A DNA stretch of 47,496 bases from Psychromonas sp. (GTDB lineage Bacteria > Pseudomonadota > Gammaproteobacteria > Enterobacterales > Psychromonadaceae). A program made the translations under genes and the position numbers. The DNA lies in the NCBI GenBank assembly GCA_013619145.1, contig JABXKR010000157.1, forward strand, positions 1 through 47,496. Direction: 5' to 3'. Of this stretch, positions 3,612 to 24,700 are shown one piece after another (position 1 is the stretch's first letter; the number at the start of each line of letters is the position of its first letter). The notes under the pieces are model-generated. The model was not told the DNA's origin. It saw only the letters and a list, made by a program, of their open reading frames with translations, and made no database searches.

Positions 3612-4215
3612 GACAAAAATTTTCCCCTTGCTATTTATTCTGCTATTTTCAGCACAAGCAAACAGTGCAACGCTTGTTATTCTCGGTGACAGTTTAAGTG
3701 CGGGTTATCGCATGCCCATAGAGCAGAGCTGGCCATCTTTGTTAAGTGAGCAGCTTAACCTGCTTGATAAACCAACCACAGTGGTTAACGGCAGTATTTC
3801 AGGCGATACCACAGGCAACGGTTTAGCACGTTTACCTGCGCTACTGGCACAACATAAACCCAGCACAGTATTAATTGAATTAGGTGCAAATGATGGTTTA
3901 CGTGGTTTTTCACCAGCAGGGATCATGGCTAATATTGAACAGATGATCACCTTGATTAAGGCGCAAAATGCGCAAGTGATTTTGATGCAAATCCATGTTC
4001 CACCTAACTATGGAAAACGATACACTCAAGCCTTTAGCTCACTTTATCCTGAATTGAGTAAAAAAAGTGACGTTCCATTGATCCCCTTTTTTCTAGATCA
4101 TCTGATCCTAAAACAACAATGGCTAATGAAAGACGGCTTGCACCCAACGCCACAAGCTCAACCTTGGATTGCACAGTTTATGGCAAAAGAGTTAGCGCCA
4201 TATCTGAAAGAGTAG
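3610..4215 (+). CDS. tesA: Multifunctional acyl-CoA thioesterase I / lysophospholipase L1 (GDSL family)
   Basis: ATG at 3610 inside the longer listed ORF 3124-4215; MTKIFPLLFILLFSAQANSATLVILGDSLSAGY (signal peptide plus GDS motif), GANDGLRG, DGLHPTPQAQ. Confidence 0.92.
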   Translation: MTKIFPLLFILLFSAQANSATLVILGDSLSAGYRMPIEQSWPSLLSEQLNLLDKPTTVVNGSISGDTTGNGLARLPALLAQHKPSTVLIELGANDGLRGFSPAGIMANIEQMITLIKAQNAQVILMQIHVPPNYGKRYTQAFSSLYPELSKKSDVPLIPFFLDHLILKQQWLMKDGLHPTPQAQPWIAQFMAKELAPYLKE

Positions 4216-4464
4216 TACAGGATTTGAAAGAGTAGTACAGGACTTGAAAGAGTAGTACAGGACTTGAAAGAGTAGTACAGGACTTGAAAGAGTAGTACAG
4301 GATTTGAAAGAGTAGTACAGGACTTGAAAGAGTAGTACAGGATTCGAAAGAGTAGTACAGGATTTGAAAGAGTAGTACAGGATTTGAAAGAGTAGTACAG
4401 GACTTAAAAGAGTAGTACAGGACTTGAAAGAGTAGTACAGGATTCGAAAGAGTAGTACAGGATT
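4201..4464. repeat. Tandem array of 13 units of 20 bp (consensus GAYTTGAAAGAGTAGTACAG), entire tesA-tilS gap
   Basis: Direct reading: units at 4201, 4221 ... 4441 in perfect 20-bp register; core AAAGAGTAGTACAG invariant; first unit overlaps the tesA 3' end. Confidence 0.98.
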
Positions 4465-9446: not shown

Positions 9447-9905
9447 ATAAAATGCCAAGTGCTTTTTTTACAGGTTTAAAGCTTTTGCGATGCTCAGGAA
9501 TAACGCCAAACTTCTCTATAGCTGCAAAATGCGCTAATTGATGAGGATAACCTTAGCATGCACTTAGTATATCCTTAGTAAGCATGCACAGGGCCAATAG
9601 CTCTATATATTACAGCAAACCAAGTACTTTTTTTACAGGTTTAAAGCTTTTGCGATGCTCAGAAATAACGCCAAACTTCTCTATAGCTGCAAAATGCGCT
9701 ATTGATGGGGATAACCTTAGCATGCCAAAATATAGAGAGTGGCAATAGCTCTATATATTACAACAAACCAAGTGCTTTTTTTACGGGTTTAAAGCTTTTG
9801 CGATACTCAGGAATAACGCCAAACTTCTCTAAAGCTTCAAAATGCGCTATTGATGGGGATAACTTTAGCATGCCAAAATATAGAAAGTGGCAATATCCCT
9901 ATATC
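9447..9905 (-). repeat. Three extra partial copies of the rnhB 3' end (tandem, about 148-165 bp period)
   Basis: Homologous blocks aligned on CCAAGT at 9455, 9620, 9768 and the genuine gene at 9916; the copies encode AHF(E/A)A(L/I)EKFGVI(P/S)E(Y/H)RKSFKPVKK(A/V)LG(L/I)L*. Confidence 0.95.
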
Positions 9906-10520
9906 TTACAACAAACCAAGTGCTTTTTTTACGGGTTTAAAGCTTTTGCGATACTCAGGAATAACGCCAAACTTCTCTAAAGCTTCAAAATGCGCCTTGG
10001 TAGGATAGCCTTTATGTTTAGCAAAACCATATTCCGGATAACGAATATCCAGCTCAACCATTTCACGATCGCGTGTTACTTTAGCAATTATTGATGCTGC
10101 ACTTATCTCTGCAACACGCAGATCACCTTTCACGATCGCTTCACTCGGCATATTCAATTTCGGGCAGCGATTACCATCAATAAATACAAATTCAGGCTGA
10201 ATACTTAGCTGCTCAACCGCACGTTGCATCGCCAACATGGTTGCATGCAGGATATTAAGCTGATCAATTTCATCAGGACTGGCACGACCAACTGCAATAC
10301 ACAGTGCTTTTTCCTGTATCTGCTCAAATAACGACTGCAGTTTCTTTTCAGTTAATTTTTTAGAGTCAGTTAAACCTTCAATCGGATTATTGGCATCTAA
10401 AATAACAGCTGCGGTAACAACATCCCCGACCAGTGGGCCACGGCCGACCTCATCGACACCTGCAATTACATTAAAGTCGGGATAAACAACATCGGGAAAA
10501 TCGGTTTTTAACTTGCTCAT
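9906..10520 (-). CDS. rnhB: Ribonuclease HII
   Basis: 204 aa; [46 protein letters not shown]. Confidence 0.96.
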
Positions 10521-17289: not shown

Positions 17290-18666
17290 CTATAATAAAT
17301 CAAAATCATTAAGTATGGCGACGGTCATTAAGGTCATTAAAATAGCCCCGCCGATCCTAAACCCTATCTCTTGAATTTTCTCTGGAATAGGTTTTCCAGC
17401 TATCAGCTCCGCAAAGTAATAAAGCAGATGTCCTCCATCTAATACCGGTAATGGGATTAAATTCATCAAACCTAAATTAACACTAATTAAAGCTAAAAAG
17501 CCCAAAAAGTATTCAATGCCATAACCAGCACTCATTCCTGCACCTTTGGCAATAGAAACAGGGCCGCTTAAATTGGTAACAGAAATATCACCTATCACCA
17601 ACTTTATTAACGTATCAAAAGTCAGCTTAGTTAACTGCCCTGTTTTTTCAACGCCTTTAATAAAGGCGTTTAATGGAGAAAACTGCAATTTTACAAGATA
17701 TTCTTCCGGATACGGATCAACTACAGGCGATACTCCGATATATCCTTGTATAGAATCAGACTGTAGCTTTCTTGCCTCGGGTGTCAACTCAACAGTTGTG
17801 ACTATTGTGCCTCTTTCAATTTCAAGTTTCAGCGCCTGGTTAGCATTTTTCTGGATCAGTTCAACAAATTCCTGCCAATTGCTTAATTTAACACCATCAA
17901 TCGCACGTAACTTATCACCAATCTGCAGCCCTGCTCTATCACCAGCACCACCTTTTACTATATTTTCCACTTGCAAGTGGACATCAGGTGTATAAGGAAG
18001 CAGGCCTAAACTGCTTATAATTGACTCTTTTTTTGGATCAAATACCCAATTCAGCAATGAGACCTTAAAAGTTTTTGTTGGTTCAAAGCTATGACTATTT
18101 TTATCAGCAGTTAATGGCGTAATAGTGATATTAAACTCATTTTCACCAATTTGACTGATCAATGCCAGATTAAGGGCTTCCCAATCTCCAATCTGTTGCT
18201 CATTAATAGCGGTCACTTGAAAAGGAGTATCACTTTTAATAATGCTCAGAGGCGTATCAGCAAGCGTCTCTTGAATAATCGGTTTTGCACTATTAATACC
18301 AATCATATACATAAAAAAGAACGCAATAATTGCCAATAAAAAATTAGCAATTGGTCCGGCAGCTACGATAGCAATACGCTGCCAAACTGTTTTTTTATCA
18401 AAAGCGTACTGCTCATCTTCAGGTAATAAGCACTCTGCGCGCCCATCCAGCATTTTTACATAACCACCCAGTGGAAAGGCCGCAATTGCAAACTCAGTGC
18501 CCTGTTGATCTGTGCGTTTAAAAAGGACTTTACCAAAACCAATTGAAAAACGATGTACTTTTACACCACAACGTCTGGCCACCCAAAAGTGACCATATTC
18601 ATGGATCGCAACCAGAATACTAAGTGCGATAATAAATGAGCCTAAATTCCATAAAGCACTTAACAT
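17290..18666 (-). CDS. rseP: Intramembrane site-2 zinc metalloprotease (sigma-E regulation)
   Basis: 458 aa; [14 protein letters not shown] (HExxH), PDZ domain, [16 protein letters not shown]. Confidence 0.95.
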
Positions 18667-19795
18667 AAAAGATCTCGTTTAATTATTTTGTGTGCGGCCT
18701 CTTTAGCCTCAATGTCGATTGCTAACAGATGTTCAATCGAGTTAATCTGCTGAGTCTCGCTACTGTTTAATACACGCTCGGTAAGCTGTGAAATTTGAGT
18801 GAATTTTATCTGTTTATTTAAAAACGCTGCAACTGCCACTTCATTTACCGCATTTAAGGTGGTGGTTGCTTGTTGCCCTTGATAACAGGCATCAATCGCT
18901 AATTTCAAACAGGGATAACGATTAAAGTCAGGCTCTAAAAAGTTAAAGTTAACACCAGAGAAAAAGTCTAAAGGAGCCGCGCCACTATTGATACGCAGCC
19001 CTCCCCCCATCACATGAGCAATAGGAATACGCATATCCGGATTACCCATTTGTGCAATCACACTGCCATCTTTATATTGCACCATTGAATGAATAACAGA
19101 CTGAGGATGAATAACCACTTGTAACTGATCGACAGAGGCGTTAAACAACCAACGCGCTTCAATATACTCAAGCCCTTTATTCATCATGGTTGCTGAATCT
19201 ATCGATATTTTTTGTCCCATTGACCAATTAGGGTGTTTAACTGCTTGAGCCGGCGTTATCAGCGAAAATTCGCTTAACGGTTTTTCTAAAAAGGGGCCAC
19301 CCGATCCCGTCAGCAATATCTTTGCTACGCCTTGACCTTGCAGATCACAAGCACCAAGACTGTTTTGCAGATTTGTCGATAAAGCCTGGTATATCGCATT
19401 ATGTTCACTATCAACTGTTCTTTATTGGCAAGAAAAATCTCTTTGCCCGCATTTACAGCTGCTAATGTTGTTTTTAAGCCCGCACCACCAACAATGGCAG
19501 CCATCACACTATCAACATCGCAGCTTGCTAATAATTGCAGTAACTGTGCTTCGTTATCAAGCACCTGACAAGGTGAGTTTGCCTGTTTGAGTAACTCAGC
19601 TAAACGCAAGCGAGCATGTTTTTCACTCATGGAGACATATAAGGGAGAGAACTCCTGGCACAGCAAAAACATTTTATCAACGCTAGCAGAGGCTGCTAAT
19701 AAAGTAATTTTGTATAAATCAGGGTTAGCGCGACAAACACTCAGCGTACTTGCCCCTATTGACCCTGTGGCGCCTAAAATGGCTAATTTTTTCAT
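18660..19795 (-). pseudogene. dxr: 1-deoxy-D-xylulose 5-phosphate reductoisomerase, frameshifted by an apparent 64-bp deletion
   Basis: N-terminal part 19325-19795 (MKKLAILGATGSIG...[13 protein letters not shown]) and C-terminal part ([13 protein letters not shown]...LLTGSGGPF...RDLLC) are in different frames; junction at 19406-19415; residues matching E. coli 127-148 are missing. Confidence 0.88.
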
Positions 19796-23035: not shown

Positions 23036-23737
23036 TTACTGACCAGCAGCAGCTAGTGTCGCAGCAACTTCAGCAGCAAAATCTTCTTCTTTCTTCTCGA
23101 TACCTTCACCCACTTCTAAGCGGATGAATGTTTCAACGTCAGCACCAGCATCTTTAAGAAGCTTAGCCACTTTCATAGAAGGATCTTTAACAAATGCTTG
23201 ACCAGTAAGACTCACTTTATCTTTAGCAAGATCCGCATCACCACCTTTAAGTACAGAAACAACACCAATTTTGCCGCTGTGTACATATGCGCCTAGGTTT
23301 TCACCTTCAACGATTTGCAGACGACGAATAGAGATGTTTTCACCGATTTTAGCAACAAGAGTCGCACGTGCGTCTTCAACAGTTGTTTCATCGTATGCTA
23401 ATGCACTTAATGCTTCTACTGAATCAACTTTGTTTGCCAGCGCAATATCTGCAACTTTATTAGCAAACGCTAGGAAGCTTTTATCCATTGCTACGAAGTC
23501 TGTTTCACAGTTAACTTCAGCAATAAGCGCAACAGCACCTGCAGTTTTAGCTAAGATCACGCCTTCAGCAGCAACACGGCCCGCTTTTTTAGCGGCTTTA
23601 ATTGCGCCAGATTTACGCATGTTTTCAATTGCAAGCTCGATGTCACCATCTGCTTCAACTAATGCTTTTTTACAATCCATCATACCCGCAGCTGTGCGGT
23701 CACGAAGTTCTTTAACTTGCTTAGCTGTAATAGCCAT
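23036..23737 (-). CDS. tsf: Elongation factor Ts, short form lacking the coiled-coil region
   Basis: 233 aa; [66 protein letters not shown]; about 58 residues fewer than E. coli between DADLAK and KVSLTGQ. Confidence 0.93.
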
Positions 23738-24579: not shown

Positions 24580-24700
24580 TTTCCTCTTAAGGGGTTAGGC
24601 CTCCACACATCCCATACACTCGACCCAATACTCAAATAATGAATAACAGGCACCCCGAGTTACGTGTCGATGCGTGTGTGTTATGTAATTACGTCTTTAT
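24580..24700 (-). promoter_or_regulatory. Probable rpsB mRNA leader (S2 autoregulatory leader / t44-like)
   Basis: Minus strand CACGTAACTCGGGGTGCC...GGGATGTGTGGAGGCCTAACCCC just upstream of the rpsB ATG, resembling the enterobacterial rpsB leader from memory. Confidence 0.55.

Follow-up and report, generated by a model that had tools for sequence, protein, structure and literature searches.

The dxr gene of this Psychromonas draft genome is interrupted in the assembled sequence, with a net loss of exactly 64 nt relative to both reference genomes, G005 and G023. We consider this loss most likely to be an artefact of the amplification, sequencing or assembly of a fragmented draft, and dxr is probably intact in the organism itself. 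The window, which is the whole stretch of 47,496 nucleotides that was analysed, is contig C150 of this draft (3.95 Mb, 336 contigs, 85.6% complete). The original prediction had described a 64-nt loss that leaves a dead reading frame and had named a sequencing artefact among its options. The loss and the dead frame both stand, while the deletion between direct repeats that it also proposed does not, as the left copy is missing in relatives.

The break in the dxr reading frame

The closest named relatives belong to Psychromonas, and the P. aquimarina locus (L032) matches relative G023. Gene order around dxr is the usual uppS-cdsA-dxr-rseP-bamA, with dxr on the minus strand and cdsA and rseP on either side. 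Codons 1-126 of dxr are normal. CAGTTGATAGTGAACAT then comes immediately after the codon GAA, and the remaining part of the gene (VDSEHN...) reads in another frame, the minus-strand sequence at the break being ...GCCAATAAAGAACAGTTGATAGTGAACATAATGCG. Alignment to E. coli Dxr structures places the N-terminal part at residues 1-126, and the C-terminal part, queried from S151, aligns from residue 151. Residues 127-148 of E. coli Dxr are gone and the frame is shifted. The alignment of both parts bears out the earlier estimate that residues ~127-148 are absent, just as comparison with G005, G023 and 107 distinct intact relatives bears out the net 64-nt loss and frame shift. The junction sequence CACTATCAAC had been placed correctly at 19406-19415. 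Exact copies of GTTGATAGTG number two, compared with an expectation of 0.08.

Table 1. Features of the dxr and tsf loci in the window
Feature	Position	Strand	Description
dxr	19795..18660	-	interrupted at 19417/19416
dxr 5' part	19325..19795	-	Dxr residues 1-126 intact, plus 30 out-of-frame residues to the stop, giving a 156-aa ORF; PF02670, 127.7 bits
dxr junction bases C-A right after GAA	19416..19417	-	64 nt absent here relative to all relatives; blunt join inferred
GTTGATAGTG at junction	19406..19415	-	right-hand VDS(E) codons; no remnant of an ancestral repeat pair
dxr 3' part	18660..19415	-	Dxr residues 149-end (VDSEHN...), other frame; PF08436, PF13288
Second exact GTTGATAGTG	19507..19516	-	lies in the N-terminal domain, encoding VDSV; no relation to the junction
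tsf (EF-Ts)	23036..23737	-	171 nt lost internally, in frame, in this draft only; GATA|AAG junction near 23212

Repeated sequence occurs elsewhere in the window. A 20-bp unit (TGAAAGAGTAGTACAGGATT) is present 13 times in tandem at 4205-4464, running from the end of a gene, and its copies are 95% alike. Behind the 3' end of rnhB (9448-9995, minus strand) stand about three partial, diverging copies of it in tandem, with a 148-bp period. In G005, three partial copies match a 133-aa ORF of the draft (L120:5559-5960), which may point to an arrangement like that of rnhB.

The junction compared with intact relatives

All 40 relative genomes have an intact dxr, with a length of 396-449 aa, and 107 distinct relatives carry the 93-nt NKE..SEHN segment without a break. 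Across these 107, the residue after NKE is A in 70 and S in 37, followed in every case by L and V, and the first base of the codon after KE is never C, only G or T. Proline, encoded by CCN, precedes V/I-D-S in 107/107. Because the relatives have CCN before V/I-D-S and never a C-initial codon after KE, the C-A of the junction agrees with the last two bases of a proline codon CCA and with neither Ala nor Ser. These codons argue strongly for a blunt GAA|CA join without a repeat as the simplest reading of the junction, with CA deriving from the invariant Pro codon. The apparent QLIV, previously taken to continue an expected KE-S/Q-L-V motif, would then be a coincidence, a chance reading of proline-valine-aspartate codons in another frame; the relatives have [AS]LV in 107/107 and QLI never.

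These comparisons bear directly on the mechanism first proposed, a deletion by recombination or slippage between two copies of GTTGATAGTG 64 bp apart, which we regard as highly improbable. The right-hand site is indeed ancestral, matching at 10/10 positions in 14 relatives and at 8-9/10 in 59, and the junction is plausible in both frames. The mechanism needs an ancestral KE-Q-L-I-V, however, where 107/107 relatives have KE-[AS]-L-V. The left-hand site matches at no more than 7/10 positions in 106/107 relatives and at 8/10 in one, with none better. The left copy is therefore missing in 107/107 relatives, a set that holds no same-species intact dxr, and the pair of copies 64 bp apart that was to be sought in them is not carried by them. 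Recombination with the other exact GTTGATAGTG (19507-19516) was also considered and rejected, as it would give a 165-nt in-frame loss, which is the wrong size.

Predicted product and possible bypass

An uninterrupted Dxr frame of ~400 aa is absent, and in its place are the 156-aa ORF and a remainder in a separate frame. The NAD(P)-binding, catalytic and C-terminal domains (PF02670, PF08436 and PF13288) are all matched across the two frames, with the 22 residues between them lost. The catalytic residues lie beyond the stop of the 5' ORF. In the 3' frame, a TAA stands three codons ahead of VDSEHN, and the earliest possible start codon is the TTG at 19316. A split functional Dxr was rejected because, with the TAA upstream and no start before 19316, the metal ligands D150/E152 are not translatable separately. 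The sequence as assembled is expected to yield no active Dxr enzyme.

E. coli does not survive the loss of DXR, save for rare suppressors, which arise at 2.4 per 10^9 cells and grow poorly (PMC3424233). PF02670 and PF08436 each have a single match in the draft, so that no second dxr or duplicated locus was found in this 85.6% complete assembly. A search of the same 85.6% complete assembly for HMG-CoA reductase (PF00368), with controls working, was also without a match, and a mevalonate bypass was rejected on this result. The earlier suggestion that the loss is compensated elsewhere is left unsupported, neither a second dxr nor HMG-CoA reductase having been found. Further down the pathway, ispG is intact.

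The two dxr halves have pN/pS of 0.114/0.805 and 0.125/0.715, and the neighbouring cdsA, rseP and uppS have 0.100-0.132/0.71-0.74. Both halves are as strongly constrained as the neighbouring genes, and relaxed selection is not seen. With normal constraint on dxr and no bypass found, the loss either is very recent or never happened in the organism.

Other clean losses and the origin of the dxr gap

A private loss is also present in tsf, 3.7 kb from dxr, where 171 nt between E. coli EF-Ts residues ~171 and ~224 are missing in frame. This takes out roughly, or most of, the EF-Ts coiled-coil region. The GATA|AAG junction is blunt, as at dxr, and an evident repeat is absent. tsf is intact in 30/30 relatives, and among the 31 genomes only the present draft has a split EF_TS match. 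Upstream of rpsB, the t44 RNA (24594-24698, minus strand; Rfam RF00127, 75 bits) is ordinary. E. coli tsf mutants altered in the coiled coil are resistant to some CdiA toxins (PMC9071432), and the tsf deletion would be notable for this reason if it were real; an artefact is the more likely reading of it.

We set 653 kb of the draft, a sample that includes five small contigs reading as N, against 1.66 Mb from G005, a relative with a complete genome. Among 123 shared genes, two further clean losses were found. A GTPase, which we take to be CobW-like from its sequence by eye, has a private, net 103-nt frame-shifting internal loss relative to G005 (C1:52232; L155:12232). A DAHP synthase (C38:5469; L217:5469) is missing ~295 nt internally, a size estimated from a paralogue, and the frame is shifted; its reading ends at ILRGGK and resumes in another frame near the C-terminal end, DTEKLLAQLSDAV. 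Both losses show when adjacent matches in different frames are inspected, and a threshold-based scan misses both. No within-gene nonsense codons or 1-2 nt frameshifts were found in the sampled genes, where apparent stops lay upstream of the true starts (over-extended starts). General low base quality was rejected as a cause, since small frameshifts and nonsense are absent from these genes. In the reverse comparison, no comparable loss was found in G005. The count of 4 versus 0 losses (Fisher p = 0.12) is small and suggestive only.

A technical artefact is the best explanation for several losses of 64 to ~300 nt that are clean, blunt and private, in a fragmented draft where small frameshifts and stops are absent from the sampled genes. 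It is favoured further because two of the losses fall in normally essential genes, dxr and tsf, and because the dxr loss is private to the draft and bluntly joined without a direct repeat, unlike typical slippage. Normal constraint on dxr, an intact ispG and a draft of 336 contigs at 85.6% point the same way, as does the lack of nonsense codons and 1-2 nt frameshifts; natural gene decay looks different. In such an artefact, two sequences flanking a short uncovered gap would have been joined end to end. We infer that the similar clean losses in dxr, tsf, the GTPase and the DAHP synthase share one technical cause, for example collapsed scaffold gaps, removed Ns or chimeric amplification products. 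Against this, the in-frame tsf loss in the coiled-coil region could be tolerable, and real pseudogenes may account for the GTPase and one DAHP synthase copy.

In the main rival reading, the sequenced cell or strain would have undergone a real non-homologous deletion very recently, leaving it dxr-null and either dying, a minority variant, or rescued by a suppressor or by outside isoprenoids. The sequence is otherwise clean, and suppressors do arise in E. coli at the rate given above. We nevertheless judge this unlikely, as it requires dxr and tsf, within 4 kb of each other, to have been hit by independent private deletions, and further deletions elsewhere, all without small indels, in a draft with normal dxr constraint and with neither a second dxr nor HMG-CoA reductase found. 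Early genome decay, in which a host-restricted or declining lineage gathers pseudogenes including dxr, would fit the several broken genes, and a 1.69 Mb amphipod-gut Psychromonas shows genome reduction within the genus (PMC5893861). This draft measures 3.95 Mb, however, essential genes are among those affected, pN/pS is low, and the many small frameshifts and stops that decay predicts number 0 among 123 genes, making this reading very improbable. Hardly credible is a real deletion in a free-living Psychromonas whose isoprenoid synthesis does without Dxr, relying on an unrecognised DXP-to-MEP replacement, and whose EF-Ts also lacks its coiled-coil region. A real dxr loss would point to a cell surviving without Dxr, a drug target and normally an essential enzyme. 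The artefact carries a warning instead: small silent gaps probably affect many conserved genes of the draft, and gene-loss claims from it need checking against reads.

DXR type II (DRL) can replace Dxr (PMC3847144) and would be a possible replacement enzyme here; a search of the draft for DRL_cat (PF21135) gave 0 matches, with control genomes equally silent. The gene itself resembles type I Dxr/IspC, with all three domains strongly matched and the usual gene order kept, but differs in its missing residues 127-148 and its broken frame. Gap-collapse and chimera errors occur in draft, single-cell or metagenome assemblies. The likeness to such errors is read here from assembled sequence, with the technical step a candidate only, and it lies in losses that are clean, blunt and private to this draft, range from tens to hundreds of bases and fall in conserved genes.
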